A stretch of 21,855 nucleotides of DNA. It comes from a virus. The notes beneath the pieces were generated by a model. The model saw only the letters and a program-made list of their open reading frames with translations. It ran no database searches and was not told where the DNA came from. The translations under genes were made by a program, and so were the position numbers. Shown here piece after piece: positions 1 through 18,800 of this stretch. Positions within the stretch are counted from its first letter, which is position 1, and each line of letters starts with the position of its first letter. The stretch spans positions 1 to 21,855 of IMG/VR virus record IMGVR_UViG_3300033153_005890; one strand, 5' to 3'.

Positions 1-318
1 TTTGTCATTTTGTCCTTTTATTTCTGGTTTTTTTTCCTCGGCTCGTCTCGCGGATTGTGTCTTATCGTGCGCGATGGTTTCAATATCTTCCAATTTCTTT
101 TTGCGAATACTTCCAGCCCAATCTACTTGCTTTTCTGTGCCTTGCAGCTCAGGCAGTCCTTTTTCTGTTGCTTCTTTTTTTGCATCCGTGGCCTCTTGAG
201 CATTTTGGCATTCCCAACATACTTGGGTTGCCAGCCATTCCTTTCTGTTTCGTTTAATACTGCCTGTGCCAATGATAGTATGGTGTTGATTGTGTCCGCA
301 AATGTGGTGGATGTTCAT
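1..318 (-). CDS. Zinc-ribbon-like phage hypothetical protein (3' end cut by window edge)
   Basis: The reading frame stays open for 106 codons from an ATG at 318 to the window edge, so the C-terminus is missing. A strong ribosome binding site (AAGGAGG) lies 5 bases before the ATG, which fixes the start. The N-terminus holds a possible metal site: Cys7-Gly-His9 and a CxxC pair at Cys34/Cys37 (CWEC). Residues 54-71 carry LPELQGTEKQVDWAGSIR, a phrase recalled from small hypothetical proteins of phages and integrative elements (usually LPxLxGSxKQIxWAxxIR). The visible C-terminal part is rich in Lys and Glu. A molecular function is not known to me; a nucleic-acid-binding or metal-binding role is only inference. 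It has its own predicted promoter (353-382) and lies downstream of the terminator that ends the late operon, so it is probably expressed separately from the tail genes. Confidence 0.75.
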   Translation of the reverse strand, partial: MNIHHICGHNQHHTIIGTGSIKRNRKEWLATQVCWECQNAQEATDAKKEATEKGLPELQGTEKQVDWAGSIRKKKLEDIETIAHDKTQSARRAEEKKPEIKGQNDK

Positions 319-352
319 GGCTGCCTCCTTGGTGGTTTGGGGTTATCGGCGA

Positions 353-382
353 ATTGTAAATACTGATATTTTATGTAAGCAA
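353..382 (-). promoter_or_regulatory. Predicted sigma-70-type promoter for the gene starting at 318
   Basis: On the minus strand TTGCTT (377-382) is followed after 18 bases by TACAAT (353-358), about 35 bases before the start codon at 318. The -35 hexamer is part of the 10-mer TTGCTTACAT, which recurs at 842-851 upstream of the excisionase-like gene. The call is by eye. Confidence 0.5.
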
Positions 383-460
383 CTGCCGTGCCAATGTGTC
401 ACCAAATAACGACACCTTTCTACAAGTCAATACTTTCGCCACCTGCAAGTGTTTTCCTCA

Positions 461-484
461 AAATGTAGGATATTTTCTACATTT
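461..484. repeat. 8-bp inverted repeat with 8-base loop
   Basis: AAATGTAG (461-468) and CTACATTT (477-484) are perfect inverted copies separated by GATATTTT. They lie in the non-coding stretch 383-486, directly beside the larger inverted repeat at 487-584. This could be a protein binding palindrome or a short hairpin. The octamer CGACACCT at 410-417, also in this stretch, matches the arms of the larger repeat. Confidence 0.6.
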
Positions 485-486
485 GG

Positions 487-584
487 TAGGTGTCGTGTTT
501 TTATGGCACCCCTTTCCCTTTGGATCCTCTTTCATGCTAAGGGGAATAAGGCTTTGCATAGGTGCCATAAAAACACGACACCTA
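487..584. repeat. Perfect 24-bp inverted repeat flanking a 50-bp spacer
   Basis: The left arm (487-510, TAGGTGTCGTGTTTTTATGG then CACC) and the right arm (561-584) are exact reverse complements over 24 bases. The right arm ends in the stop codon of the excisionase-like gene (582-584). The spacer 511-560 has no recognised gene. A further copy of the outer octamer CGACACCT lies at 410-417. It does not look like an ordinary terminator, because the loop is 50 bases and no U-tract follows. Possibilities are paired operator sites, a recombination or replication site, a structured 3' untranslated region or a small foldback element. The stretch 319-581 otherwise holds only the promoter at 353-382 and the small repeat at 461-484. 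Confidence 0.85.
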
Positions 585-797
585 TGAGCAATAGTCATCT
601 TTTTTTTGCACTTTGCTATTATATTTGTTCCTCGACTCTATTAAGACTTTTAGCCCATCCAGATCTTTAGTCCTCCAGATGTGGCGTTTAAGCACACAGG
701 GAAGGGGCATTTCGCCACGTTTAAGCATCCTAAAAACTGACCTCTGAGTAATGCCTAGATAGACGGCTGCCTCTTTAGCGGTAACGACTATATCCAT
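582..797 (-). CDS. Excisionase-like / MerR-type helix-turn-helix DNA-binding protein
   Basis: This 71-residue protein begins MDIVVTAKEAAVYLGITQRS. The segment from Thr6 to about Arg28 (TAKEAAVYLGIT, then RSVFRMLKRGEMP) matches the winged helix-turn-helix of small excisionase or MerR-like proteins, in which 'kEaAeyLgis..tvyrml..GelP' is typical; the following KRHIWRTKDLDGL fits the wing and the end of the domain. A longer frame starts at 851, but the ATG at 797 is preferred because AAGGAG (804-809) sits 6 bases before it. Family members direct DNA excision or act as small regulators. The gene lies downstream of the late-operon terminator, and its stop codon is inside the 24-bp inverted repeat, so that repeat could be one of its targets (inference). 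The motif CCGTTAAA (810-817) abuts the ribosome binding site. Confidence 0.8.
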   Translation of the reverse strand: MDIVVTAKEAAVYLGITQRSVFRMLKRGEMPLPCVLKRHIWRTKDLDGLKVLIESRNKYNSKVQKKDDYCS

Positions 798-841
798 AAT
801 TTTCTCCTTTTTAACGGTATAAAAAAAATTGTATATATATA

Positions 842-851
842 ATGTAAGCAA
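842..851 (-). promoter_or_regulatory. Repeated TTGCTTACAT element upstream of the excisionase-like gene
   Basis: The minus strand reads TTGCTTACAT here and again at 373-382 upstream of the gene starting at 318. In both places an AT-rich stretch with TACAATT follows, 12 bases after TTGCTT here and 18 bases after it at the other site. The spacing here is too short for an ordinary -35/-10 pair, so the element may be a shared activator or repressor site rather than a -35 box. An AT-rich promoter for the 797 gene probably lies between 815 and 860. Confidence 0.35.
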
Positions 852-864
852 AGCCTATGCCGTT

Positions 865-896
865 AAAATAAAAAAAGCTCCCGGGGCAGGGAGCTT
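865..896 (-). terminator. Intrinsic terminator at the end of the late operon
   Basis: Read on the minus strand, an 8-bp perfect stem AAGCTCCC/GGGAGCTT (arms 889-896 and 875-882) encloses a 6-base loop and runs directly into a T-tract (TTTTTTTATTTTAA). It lies about 40 bases after the stop of the last late gene (934). On the plus strand no T-tract follows, so it acts on leftward transcription only. Confidence 0.9.
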
Positions 897-933
897 GAAT
901 CAGAATTGTGCTAGAGTAGGAGATTAGCGATTG

Positions 934-1341
934 TCAAGACAATGTATCTATCTTTGTTTTTATCTTTGCCCGAAACTCTGCGTCTGTATCGTCTGTTACT
1001 GCACCGCTGCCGCCGTAGTCGCGCAGGTAATCGAGCAGCACGTATACCGCAGCACGGGCCATTTTATCTTTGCGTTTGTCGAGGTTTTTTTCTCGATCTG
1101 TTTTTGCTGTCAAAGCCGTATGATTTGTTATATATGTCTCTAATTCTGTATTATTTGGGCTGGCGCCGGTAATTACTATTTTTGTGCTATATGCGCTTAA
1201 ATCGTCGCTGGACAATCCTATTGCTTTTGTCTCTACTACCTCTAAATCTCCACGTGCGGTTATTTCCGCAGAACTATAATCTTTAATTATTATGTCTGCA
1301 AGAGCGTGCAAATCTATCGCTTTTGTGAACTCAAAAATCAT
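934..1341 (-). CDS. Hypothetical protein, last gene of the late operon
   Basis: This 135-residue protein (start MIFEFTKAIDLHALADIIIK) is not recognised. It is soluble-looking and acidic in its first two thirds, with no signal peptide or membrane segment. A charged stretch at about residues 82-95 (DREKNLDKRKDKMARA) and a helical C-terminus follow. Its ATG overlaps the TGA of the upstream gene by 4 bases (ATGA), which points to translational coupling, and GGAGG lies about 8 bases before the start. It is the last gene before the terminator at 865-896 and directly follows a fiber or appendage gene, so a role as a fiber accessory or chaperone protein is plausible but unproven. Confidence 0.75.
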   Translation of the reverse strand: MIFEFTKAIDLHALADIIIKDYSSAEITARGDLEVVETKAIGLSSDDLSAYSTKIVITGASPNNTELETYITNHTALTAKTDREKNLDKRKDKMARAAVYVLLDYLRDYGGSGAVTDDTDAEFRAKIKTKIDTLS

Positions 1342-2186
1342 AGTGTATTCCTCCGCAAATGCAAAAAAGTACTTACAGATCCTGCAAAAATCGTCGTCGT
1401 TGTGCCTCCATAATAAAAATAATCAAGATCATATTGCAATTGTTGGATACTTTCCGAAGTTTTCATAAAGCCATGCATAGCAATAACATCTTGACCAGCG
1501 GTAGGGTTTTGTTTAGAATGTCCCTTCACGATAGTGTTATTTTCTTCAATTTTGGTTAACAGATATTGAGTTACTGATTGAGATCCAAACACTTGTGCAA
1601 TTATAGACAATTCTGTACCGGGCAATAATACAACGCCGGGCAAGGATAAAATATCGTAATATTGCACTGTGCCGCTAGATCTAACAATACCAGACCCAAG
1701 ATAAGTTATAACGGTATCTACTCCCCAACCGCATAAATTCAAATCTCCTGCAATCTGCGTGCTACCGTCAAGATACACCGCGCCGACAAATCGCCAGTGT
1801 GCGCCGTTCCCGCTGCTAGCCAAATACCCGTCAGTCGGCGCAGTCGCTGAAAGCCTTAGAGACGACGCCGCATAGCTTGCCTGTGAATTGCTCATATACG
1901 CATAGTATAATGTACTCGCTGACGGACTTGCGCTCGCGTCAGTCCCATCGCTGGCAATCAAATTTACCGGCGAACCTGAAACGTTGCACGTTTCCGCGCT
2001 AGATAAATCAACCAGTTCATTGTTGACGAAAAGTTTTTTTCCGGTGTACTCCCGCCCGGCAAGTTGAAATTGTGTGACGCTGTTACGTTCTAATTTTGTC
2101 ACTTCCAGGCCCGGGAAGGCATGCGCGCCAATCGCGGCCTTGTGTTTGTGGCGCCCGTCTTCGAGCGCAAAAAGTATATCTGCCAT
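1338..2186 (-). CDS. Virion appendage/fiber-like protein with GRHK N-terminus
   Basis: This 282-residue protein is probably a virion appendage. It begins MADILFALEDGRHKHKAAIG, and the pattern ALxxGRHKxxAA also occurs near the N-terminus of the 435-residue fiber encoded just upstream (2274-3581), so the two may dock on the same virion partner. The middle contains LRLSATAPTDGYLASSGN followed by WRFVGAVYLDGSTQI, a pattern seen in hypothetical phage structural proteins, and the rest is beta-rich with many Ser, Thr and Gly. The start ATG follows GGGGGAAAC. A hairpin terminator (2211-2253) separates it from the previous gene, so its expression may be reduced relative to upstream genes or set separately. 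No enzymatic motif is visible. Confidence 0.7.
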   Translation of the reverse strand: MADILFALEDGRHKHKAAIGAHAFPGLEVTKLERNSVTQFQLAGREYTGKKLFVNNELVDLSSAETCNVSGSPVNLIASDGTDASASPSASTLYYAYMSNSQASYAASSLRLSATAPTDGYLASSGNGAHWRFVGAVYLDGSTQIAGDLNLCGWGVDTVITYLGSGIVRSSGTVQYYDILSLPGVVLLPGTELSIIAQVFGSQSVTQYLLTKIEENNTIVKGHSKQNPTAGQDVIAMHGFMKTSESIQQLQYDLDYFYYGGTTTTIFAGSVSTFLHLRRNTL

Positions 2187-2210
2187 GTTTCCCCCTAGTT
2201 TTTAAAACCG

Positions 2211-2253
2211 TTAAAAGAAAAAGGTTGCGGCATGACAAGCACGACACAACCTT
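2211..2253 (-). terminator. Hairpin terminator or attenuator inside the fiber gene group
   Basis: On the minus strand a 9-bp outer stem (AAGGTTGTG/CGCAACCTT, one G-T pair; arms 2245-2253 and 2221-2229) continues after a 1x1 mismatch into an inner stem CGTG/CATG with loop CTTGT. TTTCTTTTAACGG follows. It starts 20 bases after the stop of the 435-residue fiber gene. The T-tract is broken by one C, so termination may be partial and let some transcripts reach the last two genes. Confidence 0.7.
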
Positions 2254-2273
2254 CTTTTTTAACGATTTTTTTA

Positions 2274-3581
2274 TTACGTGTCAAAAACGACGTAAAGAGT
2301 TACAACAATATCACCGCTATTGTTTGCCCAGGTACCGTCAGACGTAAGCTCAACGCCGATTTTTTGACCAGCGGTAAAGGTTAGGTTAGTTGTTGCCGGT
2401 GCAACTTCTGCTTTTGCGTCGTTGGCCGGGTCGTCATCAACTGTCAGGTCCAAATCGCTTGCAGTAACTGCGGTTCCGTCAAGTGTCGGCTCAACTGTCA
2501 ATGTCCCCGCACTTCTCGCGTCTGTGCTTTGATACGTTATTTTTACAATAGAGCCAGCAGACGGCAAAAGCAACTGTTGCAACACTCCGGTAGCATCATA
2601 AATTTCAATGTTGCTTTGGCTTTCGGCAAAACCGCCGAGATACTGAAAAGTAAACGGTGTCGGCATTTTGTCGCGGTCGTCAAGTGTTTGCGGGGAATTT
2701 GACGCATCAATCGTCGTTGCAGCAGTAATTCCGGCTTGTTCGTCGCTGGTCAAATGATAATTGCCGCTGCCGTCAATGCCTGACAAATTATTATGTGTAA
2801 CAACTGATCCCAATGTTACATAATTAGTTCCGTTGTAGACATACATAACATTCTCATCTTCGGCCCATATCGCCATTCCTTCACTCGCTGCGGTTTCATC
2901 GAAGGTTGCGCCGTTGTATTCGTAGATTTTATCTGATTTTGTTTGAGTTCCAGAATCGCCAGAAGAGTCTGAACCTGTATCTTTATGGACATATCTATCG
3001 CCTGTACTTGAAGCTGATCCAGCATCCCAGCTTGACGTGTAGGAGTATAGCTTGTCCTCATTGGTGTTTAGGCATTTCTCGCCGCTTGTGCCTGTCCCAC
3101 TTGGCGCGCCAGAATCAGTTTTTACATAATCGACAGTATGCTCAACAGATTCCTGCCAATCAATCCCTTGTACAAGCCCGTCAACGTAGGTCTTGTCGGC
3201 AACCGGATTAGCCGCAGAAATAGCGTTCGGGGCTGCTCCCAGCGCGGCCTTTTCATCGGTAGTCGGGAATCTGGAGTCATTGCCAGCAGCAACCGTACTT
3301 GCACTTGTTCCCACGTCGCCGTTGCTGTTAAGGTTTTCGTATGTGACACCTGTGGAAGTGATAAAGGTAGACGTATGCTGTGCGTTTCCGTGACTGCTTG
3401 GTGTTCGTGCGTCTGTCATGCGGGAATCGCTGTCATTTACATATTTGTCGCCGGTCGCCGGTGTCCCGGTGCCGACCAGTGCGTCTTTTTGATCTGTTGT
3501 CGGCAAGAAATCCAAGTCATGCTGTGCCGCGTTAGCCTTATGTCTACCGGCCAGAAGCGCCACATAATAAGCGTTAGCCAT
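2274..3581 (-). CDS. Tail fiber protein (probable receptor-binding fiber)
   Basis: This 435-residue protein has several hallmarks of phage tail fibers. The N-terminus holds ALLAGRHKANAA, matching the neighbour at 1338-2186. Residues 50-64 (DSDSRMTDARTPSSH) match the 'DsRlsdaRtP..H' phrase of fibers. TTDQKDALVG and TTDEKAALGA form an internal repeat near residues 28 and 107. Residues 139-146 (GIDWQESV), followed by paired 'GDRYV...YEYNG...EGMAIW' units, and residues 263-283 (HNNLSG...YHLTSDEQ) are also typical. The C-terminal domain (about 309-435) is paralogous to the protein encoded at 3621-4061. The ATG at 3581 follows GAAAGGG, and CCGTTAAA lies 15-22 bases upstream of it. No protease or lyase motif is visible. 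It probably attaches to the tail tip and contacts the host surface. Confidence 0.8.
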   Translation of the reverse strand: MANAYYVALLAGRHKANAAQHDLDFLPTTDQKDALVGTGTPATGDKYVNDSDSRMTDARTPSSHGNAQHTSTFITSTGVTYENLNSNGDVGTSASTVAAGNDSRFPTTDEKAALGAAPNAISAANPVADKTYVDGLVQGIDWQESVEHTVDYVKTDSGAPSGTGTSGEKCLNTNEDKLYSYTSSWDAGSASSTGDRYVHKDTGSDSSGDSGTQTKSDKIYEYNGATFDETAASEGMAIWAEDENVMYVYNGTNYVTLGSVVTHNNLSGIDGSGNYHLTSDEQAGITAATTIDASNSPQTLDDRDKMPTPFTFQYLGGFAESQSNIEIYDATGVLQQLLLPSAGSIVKITYQSTDARSAGTLTVEPTLDGTAVTASDLDLTVDDDPANDAKAEVAPATTNLTFTAGQKIGVELTSDGTWANNSGDIVVTLYVVFDT

Positions 3582-3620
3582 CTAAAGCCCTTTCTTTTAA
3601 CGGTTTATAAAAAAGTAAAA

Positions 3621-4061
3621 TTAGTCCAAAATATAATAAATGGTTGCCTGGATATCGCTATCATTTGGCGCCCAAGCGAGAGTAGATGTCAAATCAATTC
3701 CTAATTTATCTCCCTGCACAAAGGTAATTGTACCAGCAACAGCGCTTTTTATCGCGTCGTTTGTAGTCGTGCCGTCAAGTTTAACATCCAAATCAGTAGG
3801 CACAACGCCCGTGCCGTTGACCGTTACTTTTGCGGATAATTCGCCAGCCGTGCGGGCAGCTGTTGATCGCAATATTATTTTTGTCACGCTGCCAGCTCCA
3901 GGCATTATAAAATCCTCGCCATAGAGATTCAGCATCGCTACATTTGTTTGACTGCCAGCGAATCCGCCGAGGTAATTCAGTGCTTGTGACTCCAGACCAT
4001 CGGCAACAATACCGCCACCGCCACCAGGAGCAACACCGCCAGCATATTCAGCATATCTCAT
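3621..4061 (-). CDS. Small fiber/appendage protein sharing the fiber C-terminal domain
   Basis: This 146-residue protein has a short Gly-rich linker near the N-terminus (GGVAPGGGGG, residues 8-17) followed by a single beta-rich domain (about 27-146). That domain aligns along its whole length with residues 309-435 of the 435-residue fiber: shared blocks include YLGGFAxSQxN, LPxAGSxxKI (MPGAGSVTKI here), STxARxAGxL, DLDxxxD and the terminal xLxVSx-like strands. One gene therefore carries the domain alone and the other at the end of a fiber. The ATG overlaps the preceding TGA by 4 bases (ATGA), with GGGGAG upstream. Roles to consider are a fiber tip, an alternative receptor-binding domain or a virion surface decoration. 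The homology is seen directly; the function is inferred. Confidence 0.75.
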   Translation of the reverse strand: MRYAEYAGGVAPGGGGGIVADGLESQALNYLGGFAGSQTNVAMLNLYGEDFIMPGAGSVTKIILRSTAARTAGELSAKVTVNGTGVVPTDLDVKLDGTTTNDAIKSAVAGTITFVQGDKLGIDLTSTLAWAPNDSDIQATIYYILD

Positions 4062-4342
4062 GTGACAAACTCCCCGAGTACAGTATTGCCAGCAGTGCCC
4101 TTCACTTGCAAGTTGCGCACATCATGCTTGTAACGCGGTACTCCTTTTAGGGCATAGCTTACGTTCACGGGGTATTCTTCAACCTTCGCCGCTTCTGTTG
4201 AGTTGCGAATTTCCATTGCTGCGTCCGTATTCCGAAATTGCAACTCCATCACAAAATCAGGCAAACTAAATTCTGTTGTAACGTCCGCCCATGTTGACGC
4301 TGCAAGATCTTTGTCGATAAATTTACTTCTTAGTTTTGGCAC
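4058..4342 (-). CDS. Small virion-like beta protein, GTG start
   Basis: A 94-residue protein is read from a GTG at 4342 (VPKLRSKFIDKDLAASTWAD). The frame is open further upstream to 4471, but that part is a shadow of the lysine-rich tail of the overlapping lipoprotein gene. The GTG has the good ribosome binding site AAAGGGGGGA, so this start is preferred. The C-terminal pattern (RNTDAAMEIRNS, then VRNLQVKGTAGNTVLGEFVT) resembles small beta-sandwich appendage domains of phage virions, but I do not recognise the family. The gene overlaps the lipoprotein gene by 20 bases upstream and the next gene by 4 bases downstream, so it is translated from the same transcript. CCGTTAAA lies 17-24 bases before the start. 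Confidence 0.7.
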   Translation of the reverse strand: MPKLRSKFIDKDLAASTWADVTTEFSLPDFVMELQFRNTDAAMEIRNSTEAAKVEEYPVNVSYALKGVPRYKHDVRNLQVKGTAGNTVLGEFVT

Positions 4343-4796
4343 GCTTCCCCCCTTTCTTTTTAACGGTTTTCTTTTTTTTCTTTTTGGTAAACTTTTTTGT
4401 TTTCTTTTTGGTAAAATCCTTGACCTTAAATTGAGGCTTGGCGGGCGTTCCAACCTGTTTTGGTGATACAACCGCTTTAAGGCCGTTAAGAAAAAGATGT
4501 ATCGGACTTATTTTATACCCCTGTGCACGCAGTAATGTTGTTGTGCTTTGTGCGTCGTTGATTTCATTAGCCTTAATTATCTGGTCTTTGCTGACGATGT
4601 AATGTTCTTTTCCTTTATTGTCAGACAGCGTAGGAACTCCGTTTGCCAAACTCGATTTTGGCTCCCAACAATATTGAAAATCTCCTTTGTTCCCCTTGTA
4701 GTCTGCGCCCACCGAAATACATGATTTCCCCATAGACGAACATCCACAGACTAACAAAATCAATGCCGTTAAAAAAACAATCTTTATGGTTTTCAT
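4323..4796 (-). CDS. Lipoprotein with lysine-rich C-terminal tail
   Basis: This 157-residue protein has a classical lipoprotein signal peptide: MKTIK, a hydrophobic core at 6-16, and lipobox V16-C-G-C19 followed by SS. The mature protein is predicted to be lipid-anchored at Cys19. A globular part with Cys26 and Cys43 follows, and the last 30 residues (128-157) contain 18 Lys and one Arg, including two FTKKK units encoded by a DNA direct repeat. Such a tail could bind membranes, nucleic acid or acidic proteins; here the acidic C-terminal coiled coil of the upstream kinase is an interesting possible partner (inference). Its ATG overlaps the kinase stop codon by 4 bases. Phage lipoproteins often serve in superinfection exclusion or lysis (Rz1-type), but Rz1 proteins are usually shorter and proline-rich, so that reading is less likely. 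Confidence 0.75.
   Translation of the reverse strand: MKTIKIVFLTALILLVCGCSSMGKSCISVGADYKGNKGDFQYCWEPKSSLANGVPTLSDNKGKEHYIVSKDQIIKANEINDAQSTTTLLRAQGYKISPIHLFLNGLKAVVSPKQVGTPAKPQFKVKDFTKKKTKKFTKKKKKKTVKKKGGKRAKTKK
4376..4415. repeat. 16-bp direct repeat with 24-bp period
   Basis: TTTTCTTTTTGGTAAA occurs at 4376-4391 and 4400-4415. On the minus strand it encodes two FTKKK units in the lipoprotein tail. The 24-bp period keeps the reading frame, consistent with slippage-type duplication of an eight-residue lysine-rich unit. Confidence 0.8.
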
Positions 4797-6109
4797 TTCT
4801 CTTCTTCCTCTTTTTCGATAAGTGTTTCTTTCGATTCTTCGGCTTTAAACTCTGCGCTTAATACTTTTGCGATCAAATCAATTTTGTACTCTAGTTTTTG
4901 CACTCGCTCCATTAGCTTTACATCCTTCGACTGCACAGCCCCAGACCCTGCCCCATTTGTGGCAACCGTACGTTTTGTTTTTGCGTTATCGTCACCGCCA
5001 AATTCCCTGAATAAATCGTCGTCAAAATATATTCCTTCTGCGTGGTATATGTCTTCAACTTGTCGGATAAAGTCTTCTATGTCAGGTCGTGAATCCATGT
5101 TTTCGCGAGTGGCCGCAATAAATAAATTGCGAAAAACGCCGGGCATTTCGTTTCGCTCGCTGGTTCTCAGCAATTTTTTTTGTATATTTCTGGGCGGCGA
5201 CTTTCTTGTGTGCATAAAATACAAAAACCAACCAAGACTGTACACGTCACTTTTGCTTTTTGCTAACGCTGAGTGTCCTGTATATATCTGTTCTGGCGGG
5301 CTGTAAAGGATGTCTCCGAGATAGGTTTCATCGGCTGTGTTTACGCTTCGCTCAGTGTCTGTTATTTCCTTTGTCAGCGAGAAATCAATAAGATAAGGCT
5401 TTAGGTCACGATAGTTAATGATAATGTTTTGCGGTTTGACATCACGATGCACTATTCCCCAACTATGCAAAACTTTGAACAATCGCAAGATACGCCAAAA
5501 CGTAAGCGCTATTTTTTTAGTAGCTTTGCTGTCACGTGCGCTATAGTTATTTCGCACAAAAGAGGAGAACGTCTCTCCATCAACCCACTCTAATAAGGAA
5601 TACACAGGGGCGTTTTTGCTTAACGCAACCACATTCGGCACGCCAGCTATGTTGAAAAAATTTGACTTTAATAATTTATACGCTTTTCGCTGTGTTTCAA
5701 TCCCGTAAAAAAACCGCTTGCGGAATTCGTTTTGGATTACATTTCGTTCTTTAGACTTAAAGAATATACCGCTTTCCGACTCATTTATCACGTCTGCCGT
5801 GTTAAAACAAGCCTTAGCTATCTTAACAGAAATAAATGAACCTGTAAGACTGTTCTGTCCTAGCAAAAGAAAACATTCACCGCCTATTTCTATCCAGCGT
5901 ACAAAGTTACATCGTGCATTCCCCGGCAATGGTTCCAGATATTGGAACAGAGCCTGTCCGTATTTGCGCCACAAATCACGCCGCTCTAAATGACAACCGT
6001 CTAAATATTGCGATAAGCTATAAATTTGACGGTGCCTAAGTTGCTGGTGGTGCAAATCAAGTTTTTGTAATAAGGCTAAATATATGTCTAATTGTTCGCC
6101 TTGTAGCAT
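4793..6109 (-). CDS. Hanks-type serine/threonine protein kinase
   Basis: This 438-residue protein has a nearly complete eukaryotic-like kinase domain at about 74-353. Visible elements are a glycine-containing nucleotide loop region (76-90), the ATP-anchoring lysine K96 (SVKIAK), the hinge-like YSLLEWVDGETF (170-181), the catalytic loop HRDVKPQN (221-228, D223, K225, N228), the metal-binding DFS (242-244, where most kinases have DFG), the activation-segment end SPPEQ (270-274), DVYSLGW (288-294) and R341. About 70 extra residues precede the domain. After it come a Gly/Ala/Ser linker (382-392) and a predicted acidic coiled coil (396-438). Catalytic residues are intact, so activity is expected. 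It has no membrane segment. The start ATG overlaps the previous stop (TAATG), and the gene overlaps the lipoprotein gene. Known phage kinases (T7 gp0.7, Stk of prophage 933W) modify host proteins or block other phages; which applies here is unknown. Confidence 0.92.
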   Translation of the reverse strand: MLQGEQLDIYLALLQKLDLHHQQLRHRQIYSLSQYLDGCHLERRDLWRKYGQALFQYLEPLPGNARCNFVRWIEIGGECFLLLGQNSLTGSFISVKIAKACFNTADVINESESGIFFKSKERNVIQNEFRKRFFYGIETQRKAYKLLKSNFFNIAGVPNVVALSKNAPVYSLLEWVDGETFSSFVRNNYSARDSKATKKIALTFWRILRLFKVLHSWGIVHRDVKPQNIIINYRDLKPYLIDFSLTKEITDTERSVNTADETYLGDILYSPPEQIYTGHSALAKSKSDVYSLGWFLYFMHTRKSPPRNIQKKLLRTSERNEMPGVFRNLFIAATRENMDSRPDIEDFIRQVEDIYHAEGIYFDDDLFREFGGDDNAKTKRTVATNGAGSGAVQSKDVKLMERVQKLEYKIDLIAKVLSAEFKAEESKETLIEKEEEEK

Positions 6110-6615
6110 TATTTATCCAGCTTGTTTACTTTTGCGTAAACCGATAGCCAAAATCCTTCCTCTTGTTCTTTAAATTCTCTTGCAAGCCCCTCTTTTTCTA
6201 CGTGAGCACGCAATATTTTTCTTACAATTTCAGTTAAAATGAGGCGAAAAGTTTTTGCCAAGTCCCCCCGGAATTGCAACAATACAGCCGGTACACAAGC
6301 AATAATGCCAATGATTGCAGCTATAGCAGTCTTATAATGTTGCACATATAACAATGCAACGGAGGCCCCGGTTAGAGCACAAGCCACGCCAAAAGTAATC
6401 AGGTCAAGGTTCCTTAAGGGATTCAAGGGTTTTAACTTGCGCGTTTTAATCTTTTCTTTAACGGTTTCAGGCCGCATTTGTGACGTGGCTACCTTGGCGT
6501 CGTCATTGCGCATTTTTTTTGTCATTGGGCGCAACCCGTGTTTTTCCTCTGTTGCAAATAACGGTTCTGTGTCTTTTTCAGATCCCGTTAAAGAAAAATC
6601 CTCTGTGTCGCCCAT
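6109..6615 (-). CDS. Two-TM membrane protein of the kinase cassette
   Basis: This 168-residue protein has a charged N-terminal region of about 70 residues rich in Lys, Glu and Thr. Two adjacent hydrophobic segments follow (about 72-92 and 96-114), then an amphipathic, highly charged helix (118-168). The short connection between the segments suggests a hairpin with both ends in the cytoplasm. The N-terminal region has several Ser/Thr next to acidic or basic residues and could be a substrate of the adjacent kinase (inference). A holin is an alternative because of the TM hairpin and charged C-terminus, but no endolysin is adjacent. AAAGGA precedes the ATG by 8 bases. It ends at the kinase start (TAATG), so the two are translationally coupled. 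Within the first 11 codons lies one CCGTTAAA motif copy (6585-6592). Confidence 0.75.
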   Translation of the reverse strand: MGDTEDFSLTGSEKDTEPLFATEEKHGLRPMTKKMRNDDAKVATSQMRPETVKEKIKTRKLKPLNPLRNLDLITFGVACALTGASVALLYVQHYKTAIAAIIGIIACVPAVLLQFRGDLAKTFRLILTEIVRKILRAHVEKEGLAREFKEQEEGFWLSVYAKVNKLDK

Positions 6616-6618
6616 AAT

Positions 6619-7020
6619 CTAATCCTTTGCGAGTATTTGCGAAATTCCTTTGGCCATTTGCCAGAGCTTGTCTTGCTTCTGCGACATAGTGTTTACTTGA
6701 TTTTGCAACGTATTTATTTTTGTATTCGCTGCTTTTTCATGGCTAACAAGCAATTTTCCGATGTCCGTTTTTGTTGTTGCCATGTGGCCTTTTATATCAA
6801 CGATTGTCGCGTCTGTTTTCTTTTCTTGTGCCGCAAACTTGCTATTTATAACGGTGTCCATTCCGTCAAGTTTTTGTTGCGCCTGTGTTTTAGTTTTTTC
6901 AAGGGTTTTGTTTACTTCTGTAGTTGCTTTTGTTGCAGATGCTTTCAAGTCTTGCAAACACTTGTCGATGTGGGCATCAAGCTCGCTCATGCCCTTGTTT
7001 ATTGTATCCATGAAACCCAT
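6619..7020 (-). CDS. Helical coiled-coil protein of the kinase cassette
   Basis: This 133-residue protein looks almost wholly alpha-helical. It is rich in Lys, Thr, Asp, Gln and Ala, has almost no aromatic residues and shows heptad-like spacing (for example MDTINKGMSELDAHIDKCLQ and NTKINTLQNQVNTMSQKQDK). It has one Cys, no signal peptide and no membrane segment. It could be an oligomerisation or scaffold protein; apolipoprotein-like membrane-surface binding is another possibility. It opens the four-gene block with the membrane protein, kinase and lipoprotein. The ATG follows AAAGGAAGGAAAAAC, and CCGTTAAA lies 16-23 bases upstream. A fiber or tail accessory role cannot be excluded, since it directly follows tail-tip genes. 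Function is not recognised. Confidence 0.75.
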   Translation of the reverse strand: MGFMDTINKGMSELDAHIDKCLQDLKASATKATTEVNKTLEKTKTQAQQKLDGMDTVINSKFAAQEKKTDATIVDIKGHMATTKTDIGKLLVSHEKAANTKINTLQNQVNTMSQKQDKLWQMAKGISQILAKD

Positions 7021-7053
7021 AATGTTTTTCCTTCCTTTAACGGTTTACATTTT

Positions 7054-7293
7054 TTACGGCGCAACTTCTTGTACCGCGTCGGTTTCCGAATTATAATACC
7101 AATCTTGTTTTCTAATGGTCGGATAAAAAAAGTAATGTTTGTGAAGCATTGTTTCATTTGTGTTGTCAAAACTACCGTCTGTTTCAAAATTTTCTTTCCC
7201 GTATCGCAAAACTAAATATTGAGCAATACTTTGCCCCTCACCATTTCGGGGATGAACCCCTGTATGATTTTGCTTAGCAAAAACGATATTCAC
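7054..7293 (-). CDS. Small hypothetical protein after the hub-adjacent fiber gene
   Basis: This 79-residue protein starts at a GTG (7293) two bases after the stop of the upstream gene, with GGGGGA spanning that gene's last codons as ribosome binding site. It is polar and rich in aromatic and His residues (for example HKHYFFYPTIRKQDWYYNSE), with no signal peptide or membrane segment. Small genes after a tail-fiber gene are often fiber assembly chaperones or virion accessory proteins, but the sequence itself does not show a family I know. A 33-base gap with a CCGTTAAA copy separates it from the kinase cassette. Confidence 0.6.
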   Translation of the reverse strand: MNIVFAKQNHTGVHPRNGEGQSIAQYLVLRYGKENFETDGSFDNTNETMLHKHYFFYPTIRKQDWYYNSETDAVQEVAP

Positions 7294-7295
7294 AA

Positions 7296-8237
7296 TTATC
7301 CCCCAAAATATCCGATTAAGTATATATCAGTACCTGTTCCAGCCGATGTTTCATATTCAAAAATCCGGTTTGTGTCGAGCAATTGGTTAACAGTGTTTGC
7401 ATGTGCGGCAGGCACAAAATTTTGATAATTTACAGTAGAACCGTTTTTGCGCGTTAGTGTGTCCTTGTTACAATCGATCATCAACAGCGCATCAGTTGTG
7501 CCAGCCGGTACATAATCGGACAAATCTATATTGGTCCAGGATGTAGCAGCGCCACCGATTAGCACTTGAGTTTTACTCGTGTCTTCAAAAAGCGATCTCA
7601 TTGCGCAACACTGATAAAATTCAATAAAGTTATTGATCCCATCATTAGCCACAGAGCCAACCTTACGGCGGTAATCATAACCAGACGGCATAACGGGAGA
7701 GTCACCAGTCATAACAAAAAGCCCGTCGTAGGTGTCGGCGACAGAATGCCAGATCAAATAAATATCATATACTTGGCTTGCTGACTCGCTGCCGGTATCT
7801 AGTTTCGAGCTGATGTCAATAGTTAGGGGGGCCACTGAAAATAAATTAAATGAATTTGTTTCGTCACGAGCTTTGCCAATGTTAATTTTTACGCTGCTGT
7901 CAGACACAAACTCACAATTAAGGCCGCTGCGGTAATCTGGCGGCCAAGGTGGCGCGCCGCTTGTTGTGCCTAGATCTAGTGTGATTATGCCGCCGCCCGA
8001 CTTACGAATCTTGAACTTGAGAATATTGCCGCCTTCATCGACGTACATGTGCAATTTTGAATTAGCAAGCTCCGGATCGGCGGCGGCGGCGGCTGGCGCG
8101 TCAATTATAAAATTATCATCATCATTACGGAAAATAACTTTATCATTTATACGCTCCATGTTACTTGTTATTATTGCGTTCCAGCCCTGCTGTGCGTAAT
8201 CAATTGTTTCTAGGTTGCTTGGGTTTAATATTGTCAT
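7296..8237 (-). CDS. Hub-adjacent tail protein (fiber/appendage-like)
   Basis: This 313-residue protein has the N-terminal phrase NLETIDYAQQGWNAIITSNM, like the 'W....N.N...id' opening of many phage tail appendage proteins. Its C-terminus (FEYETSAGTGTDIYLIGYFGG) ends in the 'lIGY' strand typical of fiber-like domains. A central block YDIYLIWHSVADTYDGLFVM recalls the 'yylyl...' strands of phage fibers. It overlaps the tail hub gene by 4 bases (ATGA), and genes placed immediately after the J-like hub commonly encode proteins bound to the tail tip. No enzymatic motif is visible. The product is probably a minor virion protein that binds the hub or carries another fiber. Confidence 0.65.
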   Translation of the reverse strand: MTILNPSNLETIDYAQQGWNAIITSNMERINDKVIFRNDDDNFIIDAPAAAAADPELANSKLHMYVDEGGNILKFKIRKSGGGIITLDLGTTSGAPPWPPDYRSGLNCEFVSDSSVKINIGKARDETNSFNLFSVAPLTIDISSKLDTGSESASQVYDIYLIWHSVADTYDGLFVMTGDSPVMPSGYDYRRKVGSVANDGINNFIEFYQCCAMRSLFEDTSKTQVLIGGAATSWTNIDLSDYVPAGTTDALLMIDCNKDTLTRKNGSTVNYQNFVPAAHANTVNQLLDTNRIFEYETSAGTGTDIYLIGYFGG

Positions 8238-10492
8238 GCGTAATAATTCCCATCTGGCGCGCTTACTGTTATTGTCAGCCCGGCGCTTGACCGCCCAGAC
8301 ACTCTGTGTTTAACGGTTATTTCAACGTCGCCACTGTAAACTATCAAAACATTTGTGCTTGTACTATACACCGTTGTAGCATTATACGTTAAAACAAAAT
8401 CGCCATCGCGTGAGAATGGTGGCGCTTGATCTGTGTAAGTATCTTCCGGTTGCGCACCTGCGCCGGCTGTGTCTTGTGTGTCTGGAAAAACAATTAAATT
8501 TATCTGATCTGTTGCCGACCGAACAGCCGTTATTCTGCCGGGCCTCCACGGCGTCGCCGCCTTGTCAGATACCGTGAAAGGAATAGCTGAAGCACTTCCA
8601 GCAGCAAGTGTGTTTGTTTGAAATATCGGCAAATATTTAAGATAAAAACTTTCTGCCGAAATCCCTTTGAGAACGTTGTTTTCTGTAATTTCCACAATCC
8701 AAATCGGATCTGTTGCAATGTGCGCCTCGATTGGCGTGTTTAGCACTCCGCGAATAACACCACCGAGCCTATAAGAAACGGGCCCCTCGGGCGTCACCGT
8801 CTGAAAACTTATCATCTCATTACCTATGATAGCTACACGGCGCCTGTAAAATAGATCCGTGCGTGAGATGTCGCCAAAAGCCGGCGCGAAATCCTCCTTG
8901 TAAGGAGTATACAGTATTCCTACACTATCGTCAATCTTATATGTCGATAAAGGATAAGTTTCGTCAAGTAATCCATGCTGCGCCCACGTCGCAAAAATTC
9001 CTTTGTTTTGGTAGTCGCTGCCAGTGTTTGAATATATGACCTGAAAGCTTGTTTCAATCCCTAGCTCACGCGCAGCAAGCAACAGAAAAGCCTTTTCTTT
9101 TAACGTATCGGAATTGTACGGCAGCTCAAACAAATATTGTTTAACAAGCGCAACCGGCTCCACCGTCGGTGCTGTCCATAGAGAACCGCCCGCTTGCTGG
9201 TACACGTCATCAAAAAGAGTTTCTATCATCTGGACAGCCTTAAATTTAAGAGTATTCTTGTTGTTCTCAGAATAGGAAATATCCGTTATTCTGTACTCGG
9301 CGCTGAAAAGCCCATAGTCACTGTGTGCTATGCTTACAACATCGCCAACAATAAGCATATCAAAGCTTAGGTTCGTCTCGAAATCTATCTCAGCTTCGGG
9401 GTAACTATTCTTTTTTCCGATTTCTGTCAATCTTTTCGACGCCGTGTCAACGTCACGGAAAGCAGACAGGTCAACGGATAGTTGCTTTTTGTATCCCACG
9501 AGCCGCTGCACTGCTGGATTAGGCCAGGACACCACGCGGTTTGTGAAATCCATAGCGGAGTCCGTGAAGTTACCGCGAAAATCGTTATAAATTTCGTGAT
9601 AGCTGCGACGTGTAAACTTAAATTTGATAAAATCGTCTTGCGTCATCGCTGCCGCAGGTGTTTCGGCTGGATCATAAGCACGTAGCGCGTACCGCCCGTA
9701 ATCATTGATGTATAACGCGCCGTCAACAAACCCAAGAATTTTCTGAATTATTTCTGCCGCGTCTTGCTGTGCGCTAAAAAGTAAATTTATTCCGTAGTTT
9801 TTTGAATGCCAAAAATCAGCTGCCACGTTAAAGCTTGCCAAATCGATTCCGTTTTGATCTGCGCCAGCCTTGAGAAGCACGTCATACACTGCCGCGGCTG
9901 GATTGTTACCGTTTGTCTCGTTTGCCCAATTTACCGTTAAAGGCAAAATCCGGTCTACAACAAAATGAACGATTGGCAAAACAGTAGTGTTTTCGCCCAC
10001 AAACCAGCGTTTATAGAAAACGTGCGAAACACCAGGCAATTTTGAGGTAAACTCGCCCGGCTCCGTTGGTTTTGTGGTTTCTGTACCGTCGTTAAAATAA
10101 GTGGTTCCCGCCTCAATGGGCTTTTGATCGTCGTTTATATACGTTTCAACAAGTTCGATTTTTCCTAAACTTATGGCTTGCCAGGAGTCGAGATAATAAT
10201 TTATGCCTGTAACGGCTCCACCTCCGCCTCCCATAAAACCTTTGCCTCCGCCGCCTTCTGTAATTTCCTCAGTTTCCAAATTACCGTACCAAAGCAAAGT
10301 CCCATTTATTCTTTTACGACCATATACCAAGGGCAATGCGGCGCCTTCGCGACTTTGAGTTATCCCAAAATCGTCTAAGGATGCGGGCTCCATGCGATTC
10401 TGATTATTCTTGTTTTTCTTCATTAGATACAAAGAATAAGCCAGAGAACCAGCCGCTATTGCAATTGATGCGATTGCAAACCCGATAGCCAT
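8234..10492 (-). CDS. Tail tip hub protein (lambda J / GTA gp15-like)
   Basis: This 752-residue protein is the probable central tail hub, which closes the tail tube and contacts the cell envelope. It begins with a hydrophobic stretch (MAIGFAIASIAIAAGSLAYS), then ITQSREGAALPLVYGRKRINGTLLW (43-68), the usual 'G..lP.vyG..rv.g..iw' opening of J-like hubs. A glycine-rich loop (80-92, GGGGKGFMGGGGG) follows. Residues of about 240-270 (DAAEIIQKILGFVDGALYIN) and 370-400 (EIDFETNLSFDMLIVGDVVSI) match the gp27/hub fold of the phage tail protein family. The C-terminal part is beta-rich and could hold fiber-binding or receptor-contact domains. It follows the NlpC/P60 gene by 5 bases, with GAGGAA before the ATG, in the same order as in lambda (L, K, I, J) and gene transfer agents. 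Confidence 0.88.
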   Translation of the reverse strand: MAIGFAIASIAIAAGSLAYSLYLMKKNKNNQNRMEPASLDDFGITQSREGAALPLVYGRKRINGTLLWYGNLETEEITEGGGGKGFMGGGGGAVTGINYYLDSWQAISLGKIELVETYINDDQKPIEAGTTYFNDGTETTKPTEPGEFTSKLPGVSHVFYKRWFVGENTTVLPIVHFVVDRILPLTVNWANETNGNNPAAAVYDVLLKAGADQNGIDLASFNVAADFWHSKNYGINLLFSAQQDAAEIIQKILGFVDGALYINDYGRYALRAYDPAETPAAAMTQDDFIKFKFTRRSYHEIYNDFRGNFTDSAMDFTNRVVSWPNPAVQRLVGYKKQLSVDLSAFRDVDTASKRLTEIGKKNSYPEAEIDFETNLSFDMLIVGDVVSIAHSDYGLFSAEYRITDISYSENNKNTLKFKAVQMIETLFDDVYQQAGGSLWTAPTVEPVALVKQYLFELPYNSDTLKEKAFLLLAARELGIETSFQVIYSNTGSDYQNKGIFATWAQHGLLDETYPLSTYKIDDSVGILYTPYKEDFAPAFGDISRTDLFYRRRVAIIGNEMISFQTVTPEGPVSYRLGGVIRGVLNTPIEAHIATDPIWIVEITENNVLKGISAESFYLKYLPIFQTNTLAAGSASAIPFTVSDKAATPWRPGRITAVRSATDQINLIVFPDTQDTAGAGAQPEDTYTDQAPPFSRDGDFVLTYNATTVYSTSTNVLIVYSGDVEITVKHRVSGRSSAGLTITVSAPDGNYYA

Positions 10493-10497
10493 ATAAA

Positions 10498-10989
10498 TTA
10501 TTCCTCGCAGAGCCTATAAGCTCTGTAAATATACTTTTCCCAATATCTCAAAGGCGCTATGTGTACGCCTATTTTTTCTGTGCTGTGAACTATATCGCCA
10601 TTACCAATATAAATCGCCGAATGGTTTGCCAGCCGTTTTTGGGATACCCGGAAAATAAGCCAATCACCAAAGGCAAAATTTTCTTCTTTAACGACTTTCG
10701 CTTTTAATCCAGAGCGCAAATGACTAAAATGATTCGCCATGCTACGCAAGAAAACTTCAGTGTTCCCGTGTACGTGCCAGTCAGAAGGCAAGTATTTAGG
10801 CGCTTCCACGGTCGTCAGTATTCCGTATTCGCGCAGAGCTTCCGCCAGGAACAAAGCACAATCAGCGCCCCGTCCTTTTATTCCGCAATTTCTGCGGTAT
10901 GGCGTACCAACCCAAGACGACAGGACGGCAAAAAACGCATCTTTCCTTTTAACGTCGTTAAGAAAAAAAGGTTTTATGTTATCGCCCAT
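10498..10989 (-). CDS. NlpC/P60 tail-tip peptidase (lambda K-like)
   Basis: This 163-residue protein has the NlpC/P60 cysteine peptidase core. Residues 25-45 (SWVGTPYRRN, then GADCALF) give the nucleophile Cys44, and NHSAIYIGNGDIVHS (122-136) gives the catalytic His123, with His135 possible as the third polar residue. Family members cleave peptidoglycan stem peptides. In lambda K and gene transfer agent gp14 this function sits at the tail tip and is thought to help penetrate the cell wall. It overlaps the upstream 59-residue lipoprotein gene by 11 bases and is followed by the hub gene. GAGGA lies before the ATG. No signal peptide is present, as expected for a virion component. Confidence 0.9.
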   Translation of the reverse strand: MGDNIKPFFLNDVKRKDAFFAVLSSWVGTPYRRNCGIKGRGADCALFLAEALREYGILTTVEAPKYLPSDWHVHGNTEVFLRSMANHFSHLRSGLKAKVVKEENFAFGDWLIFRVSQKRLANHSAIYIGNGDIVHSTEKIGVHIAPLRYWEKYIYRAYRLCEE

Positions 10990-11158
10990 TTAAACGGTCC
11001 TCTATGGCCTTTACTTTATGCTGCCGAACATCATCCGACTTGACACGAACCTCGAACGCTCGCCATTTCCCGCCTGTATCCTTGCGAAAAGACACATGGC
11101 CAGGCACGGGGCAGCTTGTCAAGCAAAAAACCGTTAAAAGAAATAATATTTTTTTCAT
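10979..11158 (-). CDS. Small lipoprotein (59 aa) inside the tail-tip operon
   Basis: The 59-residue frame starts at ATG 11158 and ends at TAA 10979. The product begins MKKILFLLTVFCLTSC, a compact lipoprotein signal peptide with lipobox L-T-S-C16. After cleavage only about 44 residues remain (PVPGHVSFRKDTGGKW and a charged, helical C-terminus). The gene lies between the L-like and K-like tail genes and overlaps the NlpC/P60 gene by 11 bases, so it belongs to the late transcript. The upstream sequence GCAGAGTAGAAAAT gives only a modest ribosome binding site. Phage lipoproteins of this size can block the phage's own receptor (for example Llp of T5) or assist lysis (Rz1). Here a superinfection-exclusion or envelope role is plausible but inferred. 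Confidence 0.75.
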   Translation of the reverse strand: MKKILFLLTVFCLTSCPVPGHVSFRKDTGGKWRAFEVRVKSDDVRQHKVKAIEDRLNGR

Positions 11159-11175
11159 ATTTTCTACTCTGCTAT

Positions 11176-11970
11176 TTATCCAAAACCAGAAACCGCTGGA
11201 TTTTTTGATGGGATATAGGGCATTCCCAAGTAATTATCCAAATTAGAAAACTTATCCCTGCACGTCACCGGCGATAAATTACAACCAGGATAAGCCACGA
11301 TGATTGAACCCGTATAAACGCGGGCATCGAAGGGGACTTGCAAAGTAATTGTGCTTGTAAAATGGTTCGTAATTAAGCGAAAATCTGTGTCAGCAACCAC
11401 ATGCCCGCCGGTAAAATAACCATTCGGTTTAGCCGCAAACGCTGCCGAAACAAGCGTCGATGCTGTAACTGTAACGGTTGCAGCCGTGCGGAAATCTTCT
11501 TGGTTGAGCTTACAGCCTGGATCAAATACCCTGTGATTGCAATAAGCCTGGTAAAGGACATTCGGAATCTTCGTGCGAAGCACGTCAGACAAGCTTTCGC
11601 AAGTAGCCCGTGCAACCTTATCCTCTATGTCTACCGTTTTTATTATTCCCGAGAATACCAGACGGAAAGCCGTCAAGTCAGAAAGAAAAGCACGGTATAT
11701 CTTAATGATTACGGGCTCTAAAGGCGTATTTGCAATATATTGAGTCATCGGGAAAATTAAGGGCGCTGAAATCGTTACAGTGATTGCTCTAAACTGTTGG
11801 TCTACGTTAAAAGGTGAACGTTGCAAAGGTTTTGAAACATACTCTTGACCGCCAAATGTTATATTATTTGCGTACGAAGTATAATAATAAATCACGTTAG
11901 CAACAGAAATTTCAAATAACTCTGCAAACCCCGACATTTCTGTCTTAACGGTTTCCGTCTCGTATGTCAC
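11176..11970 (-). CDS. L-like minor tail protein with four-cysteine metal site (DUF2163/BR0599-type)
   Basis: This 264-residue protein resembles the tail-tip proteins of the DUF2163 / BR0599 group and lambda L. The N-terminal part (residues 13-72: SGFAELFEISVANVIYYYTS, then FGGQEYVSKPLQR) is typical. Four cysteines in the expected pattern occur at Cys144 (CNHRVFDPGC, with Cys153), Cys230 (YPGC) and Cys237 (TCRDKF). The conserved ending NLDNYLGMPYIPSKNPA follows. In lambda L and gene transfer agent gp13 such cysteines are known or proposed to bind an Fe-S cluster. The start is GTG at 11970, 4-base overlap (GTGA) with the previous gene and AAAGGAG 8 bases upstream. It lies before the small lipoprotein and NlpC/P60 genes, as in lambda and gene transfer agents. 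Confidence 0.85.
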   Translation of the reverse strand: MTYETETVKTEMSGFAELFEISVANVIYYYTSYANNITFGGQEYVSKPLQRSPFNVDQQFRAITVTISAPLIFPMTQYIANTPLEPVIIKIYRAFLSDLTAFRLVFSGIIKTVDIEDKVARATCESLSDVLRTKIPNVLYQAYCNHRVFDPGCKLNQEDFRTAATVTVTASTLVSAAFAAKPNGYFTGGHVVADTDFRLITNHFTSTITLQVPFDARVYTGSIIVAYPGCNLSPVTCRDKFSNLDNYLGMPYIPSKNPAVSGFG

Positions 11971-15857: not shown

Positions 15858-18800
15858 CTACGTTGACATCAACGTCTTTACCTCGTATCTATTACGTGTC
15901 AACACGTTCATAATCATGCCTTCGCCTTCGCTAGTCGCGAGAAATTGCTGAAACAAATTAGGATCGACAAAATTTGCAATATTGATTTGCTGTGCTTGTT
16001 GTGACTTGTCCGCTTGTTGACGCGGCGGCAACACAGGGCCGCCGGCGGCAAATGCAACCTTTGGCACATGTACAGGAGACTTGATATTATTGGCAAAATT
16101 GTTAATCGATTCACGATTGATTAACTTGCCTCGCAGCCCATCGAGTAATTGCATACCGTAATATTGAACGCTTCCGCGAGGGATGACATACTCACCAGCA
16201 GTAAGCATAGCTGGCACATTGTCTGTACCACCTGGCCCGGCGACCTCTCCACCGGTCGCGTATTTTTGCGCTACGACCTTGGCGATTTGCGTACCGGTTA
16301 ACGCGGCTATAGAAGCAGCCGCAACCGGACCGCCAATCGGACCAAGTGTGCTAAATGCTTTGACAATTGCCACGGCGCTATTTATAAGTATATCAGCTAT
16401 TGCGGCGGCCTTTTGTGCAATAAGTAATTTTTTATTTTTCTTCCCGGAGAATTCCACCATGTTGTCGATCATTTGTTTTATGTTACTACTAGCCTGTGTC
16501 GCGGTGCGACTTATAACTTCTATGAGTGCAAGAAATTTTTTACGAGTTTTTTCAGCAGATTCATTTATTTTGTCATAGTCTGCAATCATTTTATTTATCA
16601 TATCGGCTGTAGAATCACCCGTGTCTGCGGTTATTTGATCGATCCCTTTTGCTGTTGCTTCGTGCATTTTTTGATATTGCAAACTAAGTTTTTCAATATT
16701 TTCATCGCTTACAGCTAACTGCATTTTTTCAAAAATATCTGGGATTGGTGTATCACTTACGATTCCGGACACCTCGTCAACTAATTTTTTTACATTTTGT
16801 ACAAAAACTGCAATTTGTTTCTCGGCAAATTTTCCAACATCATCCGCCCGAAATCCTTTAATAAAATCTTGTGCGTCTTTTTCAGCCGTTACAAAATAAT
16901 CCTTTGCTTTTTTGCTTACGGTTTTAAAACTATCTGCAACATATTCTGCTGCTTCGTTTGCCGAAGACAATGCGACATTATATGACTCCGCAATAATGTC
17001 GCCACCTTTTAATTTTGCCGCTTGCGTATCCAAAGCTTTTATTTGTTGCAAGAGTGGTCCGACAATATTAACGCTTTTCGTTAAAAAACCAAAACCAGGG
17101 ATCTTTGCCAAAACCTTCGCGTATTTGGATTGCCGAACCGCTTGAATAAACCCAATCAAAACCTCGACTACAAATTTTTTCACAAAAATAACAACTCGAG
17201 CAGTAAAAAAGTTGAAAAATTTAGGAACAAAAGCGCCGGCAAAACCGATTATAAAAAATCCTAAACTAGCAAGACCCCTTGCAATAAAACCATATAAGGC
17301 CGTGCCAAATTTAAAAACAGTACTCTGTACTATTTTTTTGTAAACAAAAACTAATACGGTTACTGCTTTGCTCCAAATCAATTCACCTATTCTTGGAATT
17401 ATACCGGTAACAAAAACTATAACCAACGTAGCTGCAACGTTTTGGAACTGTTTTATAACATTTAAAACAAAGCCAAAAAAGGAGACTATCAACTTTCGTA
17501 AAATCTCAATTGCCCGGGCTGGATTTTGAACGATAAACGTATAGATTTTAATGATACCGTTAAACAAAATATTGATGAGCTGACCAACGATCGCGAAAAA
17601 CACCTGGATTCTTATCCTATTATTTCTGAGTAGAGAAATCAACTTTTCGTTTAACGACGTTAAAATAGGGAGAATTCCTGCAAGGAAATCTCGCTTGATT
17701 GAGCCAAAAACCTTGCTAAATATCGAGAGCTGCGCGCCGACCCGCTGCGCAAAACCAGAAAAGCCATGATCAAAAGCTACGCCGAGCTTTACTGAATCGC
17801 GCAGTAACCCTTGTATTTGCTTGCTTCCAAGACGCATAAGGTTTATAACTTTATTTGTCCCAACTACGCTGATGAGTTTCAAAGCATCTGCCGCTTTTTT
17901 GCTACCAGGAGGTACGCTTTTTATAACGTCAGAAATGGCTAAGAACAAGGCGAGCGCCGGATCTCCCTTTTTCTTTATCTTTTCAAGATCAATTCCAAGG
18001 TCAGCAAAAGCCTGTCTCTTTTTCGGGTCGGCAAGCCCTTCGTTTAGGGCAGTATTCAATCTGGGAAAAATAAGTGTTAAATCTTGTAAGCTTCCACCCA
18101 CGCTCGATATAGCAAAATCAAAAGCCTGTAATCTTTCCGTTGTTGTTCCTATTCTGTCCGCTAGAAATTTTATGTTCGCTGCACGTTTTATGGTAGACCC
18201 AAAAAAACCTGAAGCTTTGCCGAAAGCGTCGGGCAAGGCTTTCAGCGGGTTAAGAATTGCGGAAGCAACAAAGGTCATGGCGCGACTGATAAAACTAACG
18301 CCACGGACCATGCCAGCAGCTAATAACCGGATTAGCTCAACTCCAGAGCGGCCAATTCTTCGCAGCGGTCCTCTTTTGGGTGGAGACGAGGGAAAAAACG
18401 CAGAAATTAAATCGGCTGCATGATTTGCAGCAGCTATAATTTCCGTATCATTGCTTCTCAAACTTTTTGACAACAAACTTGACAACTGCGAGCCGAAATC
18501 ATTTCCTGCAATTTTCCCTTTTCTTACCAAATTTTGCAAGGCGGTTTCTATCGGCTTGAAGGCTGTCAATATTTTTGTCGAAGAAAAAGACTGAAGCGCT
18601 AATCCAAAAGTTTGTCCTATAATTTTGGCGCCATCTGCTGAAGTCTTAAATTTTTCGTTTGTTCTCGTCAAAATTTGACCAACAGAAATTAATGCACTCT
18701 CAAAAGTGCCAAAAACTTTATTTCCAGCTTTGAGACTTACTACAAAATTTCCTACCGCTTGCGCCAGGCCCGCAACTCCTTCGGGCAAGACTTCTAGCTT

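Follow-up and report, generated by a model that had tools for sequence, protein, structure and literature searches.

The window analysed here is a 21,855-base IMG/VR virus record in which ORF calls and searches against Pfam and PHROGs identified a siphovirus-type tail module on the minus strand. This module encodes a tape measure-like protein (15858-20582), an NlpC/P60 protein (10498-10989), a tail hub (8234-10492; PF13550/Rcc01698-like by both Pfam and PHROG matches), and a first tail-fibre protein (7296-8237), all on the minus strand, along with several further tail proteins that include DUF2460- and BR0599-type members. A 59-aa ORF with a small-lipoprotein-like start (LTSC) lies between the BR0599-type and NlpC/P60 genes (10979-11158). 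The N-terminal segment of the first fibre protein is conserved, having been detected by tblastn in many relatives and in a second locus described below (L352), and its gene forms the upstream border of the gene cassette that is the subject of this study; a 79-aa ORF (7054-7293) lies between the two. Fibre-like genes then run from the cassette down to position 934. Among these, a 435-aa fibre-like protein (2274-3581) has a C-terminal stretch of 123 residues that is 41% identical to the adjacent 146-aa protein (3621-4061), and these neighbours are, on sequence comparison, a duplicated fibre domain.

The cassette itself comprises four minus-strand genes that encode, in order of transcription, a 133-aa coiled-coil protein with no transmembrane (TM) segment (6619-7020), a 168-aa protein with two TM segments (6109-6615), a 438-aa protein kinase of family PF00069 (4793-6109), and a 157-aa lipoprotein (4323-4796). 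Successive junctions consist of a 3-base gap, a 1-base overlap, and a 4-base overlap, as described in an earlier note on this DNA, which had reported four tightly packed genes in 4323-7020, neighbours being 1-4 bases apart or overlapping by as much; all four ORFs were recovered at those coordinates. That note had also placed the cassette between the hub and fibre genes. It does lie inside the tail operon, but the first fibre gene and the 79-aa ORF separate it from the hub. Further, the overlapping run of genes extends past the lipoprotein gene into the gene for a 94-aa fibre-region protein (4058-4342, minus strand), the L352 homologue of which is 32% identical (E 4e-15) and begins at a matching place, so that the window gene most likely starts at the GTG at 4342. 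This 94-aa gene adjoins the lipoprotein gene in both the window and L352 and is probably outside the kinase unit proper.

A consensus scan of positions 1-11500 returned 28 promoter-like sites, compared to 22.3 (sd 4.9) in shuffled sequences, and no convincing promoter just before the cassette, where the upstream gap is 33 bases. The same scan identified one strong minus-strand site resembling an intrinsic terminator (896-875; a stem of 8 pairs with a T run behind it), located past the last fibre-region gene, where the tail/fibre operon ends. Given the lack of a convincing promoter and the presence of a strong terminator only at this distal site, the simplest reading is that the cassette would share the transcript of the tail genes, with its proteins being produced late in infection. 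Just past the terminator is a gene for an excisionase-like helix-turn-helix protein (HTH_17; 582-851), and a counterpart is present at the same end of L352 (459-683).

The L352 locus (IMGVR_UViG_3300028827_000081; 13,479 bases), which comes from a related phage, was found through a DNA pattern for the kinase motif HRDxKPxNI, and its genes encode a coiled-coil protein, a 2-TM protein, a kinase, a lipoprotein, the 94-aa protein, and a further fibre protein, which is the gene order of the window. Checking whether homologues of the four genes occur together, as the earlier note had proposed, thus showed the same set in the same order, indicating that the unit is real and reflects more than chance. 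The four genes constitute one conserved phage unit, and this is the firm result of the analysis. Its proteins are 28-37% identical between the two loci (kinase: 31%, E 2e-31), compared to 54-55% for the hub and 36-55% for the other tail proteins, indicating that the cassette proteins have diverged more than most tail proteins.

None of the three partners of the kinase has a convincing match in Pfam, PHROGs, PADLOC, or NCBIfam. The weak hits of the coiled-coil protein are those that any coiled coil gives, and the best lysis-family hits among the partners (PHROGs) are also weak (0.24 for an Rz-like family and, for the L352 2-TM protein, 0.043 for a holin). No good match of the partners to known tail, holin, or spanin families emerged. 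The coiled-coil protein has a homologue in L352 (32% identity, E 8e-12) with a conserved MGF[MI]D start. The 2-TM protein has a charged N-terminus followed by two TM helices that form a hairpin, and by the positive-inside rule both of its ends would be cytoplasmic. Its L352 counterpart (131 aa; TM starts at 38 and 68) has the same place and topology, although sequence kinship between the two is weak, with the score reached by 7 of 500 local shuffles; homology of the 2-TM protein beyond this pair was tested and found to be unsupported. Among 1601 background genes, just 14 have a small 2-TM gene immediately upstream, which makes this arrangement generally rare. The lipoprotein carries a VCGC lipobox followed by two conserved cysteines, and its L352 homologue (37% identity, E 3e-17) shares the signal, the two cysteines, and a common YKG..G.F.YC.EP stretch. 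The lysine-rich tail attributed to this protein is present in the window copy but missing from that of L352. A structural model of the lipoprotein was too poor for use (pLDDT 57) and was set aside.

The kinase matches PF00069 with an E value of 6e-23 (82 bits against a cut-off of 31.7), and PHROG 2361 is the best phage family for both the window and the L352 kinases (5e-22 and 4e-18, respectively). Its layout consists of a helical N-terminus, a kinase domain at about residues 67-357, and a long C-terminal helix (390-437). An AlphaFold (AF2) model generated with 28 kinases in the alignment has a bilobal kinase fold (pLDDT 73.9, pTM 0.73) that was matched by Foldseek to PknB (5u94; E 7e-14, TMt 0.76). 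Despite the 31% identity between the window and L352 kinases, the catalytic residues are kept, with K96 (beta3), H221-R222-D223, K225, N228, and D242 invariant in both; the DFG motif reads DFS in both, with the Asp kept. The column of the alpha-C Glu is occupied by K in the window, Q in L352, and T and S in two further phage kinases (L115 and L242), whereas Glu is found in 22 of the 23 other rows that have a residue there. The L242 kinase additionally has N at the position of the beta3 Lys. The earlier description of an intact-looking Hanks-type kinase is therefore sound with respect to the PF00069 match and the catalytic loop but not with respect to the alpha-C Glu, which is lacking at its canonical column. 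The missing Glu together with the DFS motif implies that activity may be weak or absent. In the predicted helix, E138 lies one turn ahead of the canonical place and might stand in for the lost Glu. The assignment to the PF00069 kinase fold stands despite the missing residue.

Single-protein scans of IMG/VR viral contigs with the kinase, the hub, and the 2-TM protein returned no relative, and a kinase-alignment scan yielded no third copy of the cassette. Tail-gene relatives were recovered on many contigs by alignment-based scans with the BR0599-type tail protein and the hub. When the whole records of 38 such relatives were searched for PF00069, it was detected only in L115 and its near-identical duplicate L175 and was missing from the other 36. 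Likewise, HMMs of the coiled-coil protein, 2-TM protein, and lipoprotein found no counterpart in any collected locus but L352, such that, among the loci collected, these partners occur only alongside the kinase. In all, two true copies of the full four-gene set were identified (the window and L352), a locus count that rests on exact-pattern scans of records that are in many cases fragments, which makes absence weak evidence. In kinase-less relatives, the slot of the cassette is taken by different small genes for membrane proteins, coiled-coil proteins, and lipoproteins, some of them lysis-like, so that part of the set may function in lysis. Downstream of the hub in L181, L184, L187, and L210, glycosyltransferase-like and methyltransferase-like genes were seen by eye past the fibre genes. 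A kinase scan of genome contigs recovered generic bacterial kinases only. Searching sampled genomes from three phyla with the hub did not reveal the phage host; an initial guess at an alphaproteobacterial host was dropped.

Cassettes with a comparable architecture were seen in two other phages. L115 (IMG/VR 3300017987_000186) has its cassette past the hub and fibre genes, in the order helical protein (255 aa), 63-aa protein, 2-TM protein (139 aa), 317-aa protein, kinase (349 aa), caspase (264 aa; PF00656, E 1e-17), and fibre-like protein (529 aa). The kinase gene is directly followed by the caspase gene (L115:16643-18465; the same in L175), and the FHA/GAF-like and 2-TM proteins are encoded upstream. 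No paper on a phage with an FHA protein, a kinase, and a caspase was found in the open full-text literature. The phage to which L115 belongs (G009) also encodes ParA/ParB, repressor-type HTH proteins, and an Acb2/Tad1 hairpin protein (L371:12109-13754 and other ORFs), and is probably temperate and plasmid-kept, with a counter-defence gene. The second example, L242/L365, belongs to a 116-kb phage and encodes a helical protein (229 aa), a 58-aa protein, a TM protein (192 aa), an FHA-GAF protein (494 aa; PF00498, 1.3e-5), and a kinase. Here the TM, FHA-GAF, and kinase genes (L365:11112-15087; beta3 Lys replaced by Asn) lie close to a T4-like portal gene (16914-18662), within a distance of a few genes. 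This FHA-GAF protein has a relative in the 317-aa protein of L115 (BLASTP 2e-10), chiefly in the GAF part. Both cassettes resemble that of the window in having a TM protein with an acidic or charged N-terminus, a kinase that lacks the alpha-C Glu, an upstream helical protein, and a location in a late-gene region, but they differ in having FHA/GAF proteins (and, in L115, a caspase) and in lacking the lipoprotein. The window and L352 kinases form one clade in the wider tree (100/99). The L115 kinase grouped with that of the window in a quick tree and with that of L242 in the wider tree, and an AU test decided neither; a common origin of the L115 or L242 kinase with that of the window is accordingly not claimed.

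Phage kinases of known kinds include the T7 kinase, Stk of 933W, the HipA-type kinase of Gratiaviridae, CotH-type kinases, and KKP (PMC8008677; PMC11341870). The kinase of 933W functions in lysogens, and that of T7 is active at an early stage of infection (PMC8008677). Stk of 933W and T7 gp0.7 resemble the window kinase in being protein kinases encoded by phages, and both target the host, but by their descriptions they are set apart from a late tail-operon unit with these partners. KKP is similar in that Hanks-type kinases are carried by prophages in a small gene unit, but it combines two kinases with a PP2C phosphatase (PMC11341870), whereas the window has one kinase, without a CSD or FHA fusion, together with membrane and lipoprotein partners. 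Searches of Pfam and PHROGs returned no phosphatase match in the genes neighbouring the window kinase; elsewhere in the sample, many phage kinases resemble KKP in that the next gene is a second kinase or was judged by eye to be phosphatase-like (PP2C). The HipA-type kinase of Gratiaviridae is encoded among late structural genes, as is that of the window, and has been proposed to keep out other phages (PMC8008677), but it belongs to the HipA family and is found beside an ATPase and a glycosyltransferase, whereas the window kinase is of the PF00069/PknB type. The match to PHROG 2361, a serine-threonine kinase family for which kinase is the only function given, spans just the middle of the window protein. 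Similarly, PADLOC hits span the kinase domain only and the NCBIfam MADS6 model scores 70.7 bits against a cut-off of 460, and the kinase is not assigned to PD-T4-6, MADS6, Stk2, or the other kinase defence families tested. By the features tested, the window unit is none of the named phage kinase systems, and the earlier statement that no known system has these four partners holds within the libraries and open literature searched.

As the favoured but tentative reading, itself short of an even chance, it is proposed that the cassette encodes a late-expressed, membrane-anchored kinase module that acts at the host envelope, either excluding other phages or holding the cell until lysis. The 2-TM protein, as an inner-membrane hairpin, would recruit the cytoplasmic kinase, aided by coiled coils in the kinase C-terminus and in the 133-aa protein, and the lipoprotein would work either on the external face of the inner membrane or at the outer one. 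The kinase could then phosphorylate a host protein at the envelope, with the most likely benefit being that other phages are kept out or that the cell is held until lysis. The conserved unit, the kinase fold, the kept catalytic loop, and the membrane and lipoprotein signals are observed; late timing, complex formation, activity, targets, and benefit we infer from anatomy and gene position. Such a module is favoured by the two other phages in which late regions combine a kinase with TM and FHA/GAF proteins. Exclusion genes are usually expressed from a prophage by their own promoter, and the lack of one at the cassette counts against exclusion.

The main rival is a cassette for lysis or its timing, in which the 2-TM protein would be holin-like, the lipoprotein and coiled-coil protein would target the envelope, and the kinase would adjust when lysis occurs, because the slot of the cassette holds lysozyme-, holin-, and spanin-like genes in related phages. 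Inspection by eye of kinase-less relatives showed lysozyme-like, 2-TM, spanin-like, and lipoprotein genes right past the first fibre gene, no endolysin, holin, or spanin was seen elsewhere in the window, and the L352 2-TM protein gave its weak holin hit to phrog_2359 (E 0.043). This explanation is nevertheless unlikely: the partners lack sequence matches to the lysis-like genes of the relatives, the long cytoplasmic ends of the 2-TM protein are unlike those of small holins, the lipoprotein does not resemble a spanin, and the kinases of L115 and L365 are paired with signalling domains instead of lysis genes. Packaging of the proteins in or on the tail, for delivery at infection as early host modifiers, is improbable. 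It would fit the position among tail genes and a coiled coil that could be a tail component (the L352 copy has weak tape-measure-type hits), but siphovirus tails do not usually contain proteins with a lipoprotein signal or a TM hairpin, and the kinase has no tail-family match.

Abortive infection mediated by a prophage-expressed defence system, as for Stk of 933W or KKP, is quite unlikely. Known roles of phage kinases do include this kind (PMC8008677; PMC11341870), and the L115 cassette, from a phage that is probably temperate given its ParA/ParB and repressor-type genes, ends in a caspase; caspases are typical suicide effectors. However, the window has no adjacent PP2C phosphatase or second kinase, scores are far under the cut-offs of defence models, the cassette lies within the tail operon and no convincing promoter precedes it, and no integrase or repressor is encoded in the window, although an excisionase-like HTH protein is. 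It is decidedly improbable that the kinase is a pseudokinase scaffold that binds without phosphorylating. Replacement of the alpha-C Glu in all four phage kinases, the Asn at the beta3 Lys of L242, and the DFS motif of the window and L352 would be consistent with such a role, but K96, the HRD motif, K225, N228, and D242 have been kept in the window kinase through strong divergence, and E138 might replace the Glu.

A membrane-anchored kinase module of the kind proposed could belong to a wider and so far undescribed class in the late genes of tailed phages, a rather doubtful possibility in which each module would comprise a helical protein, a TM hairpin as the anchor, in some cases an FHA/GAF reader, an atypical kinase in which the alpha-C Glu is missing, and an output protein that can be exchanged (lipoprotein for the window and L352, caspase for L115). 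Known roles exist for only a few phage protein kinases, and the small size of the four-gene unit lends itself to direct testing. A conserved tail-operon unit in which a kinase is linked to a membrane hairpin and a lipoprotein would suggest signalling at the envelope or at a late point of infection, which has received little study. Further, the FHA/GAF-like protein, kinase, and caspase encoded side by side among the fibre genes of L115 suggest that phages may carry complete signalling chains.
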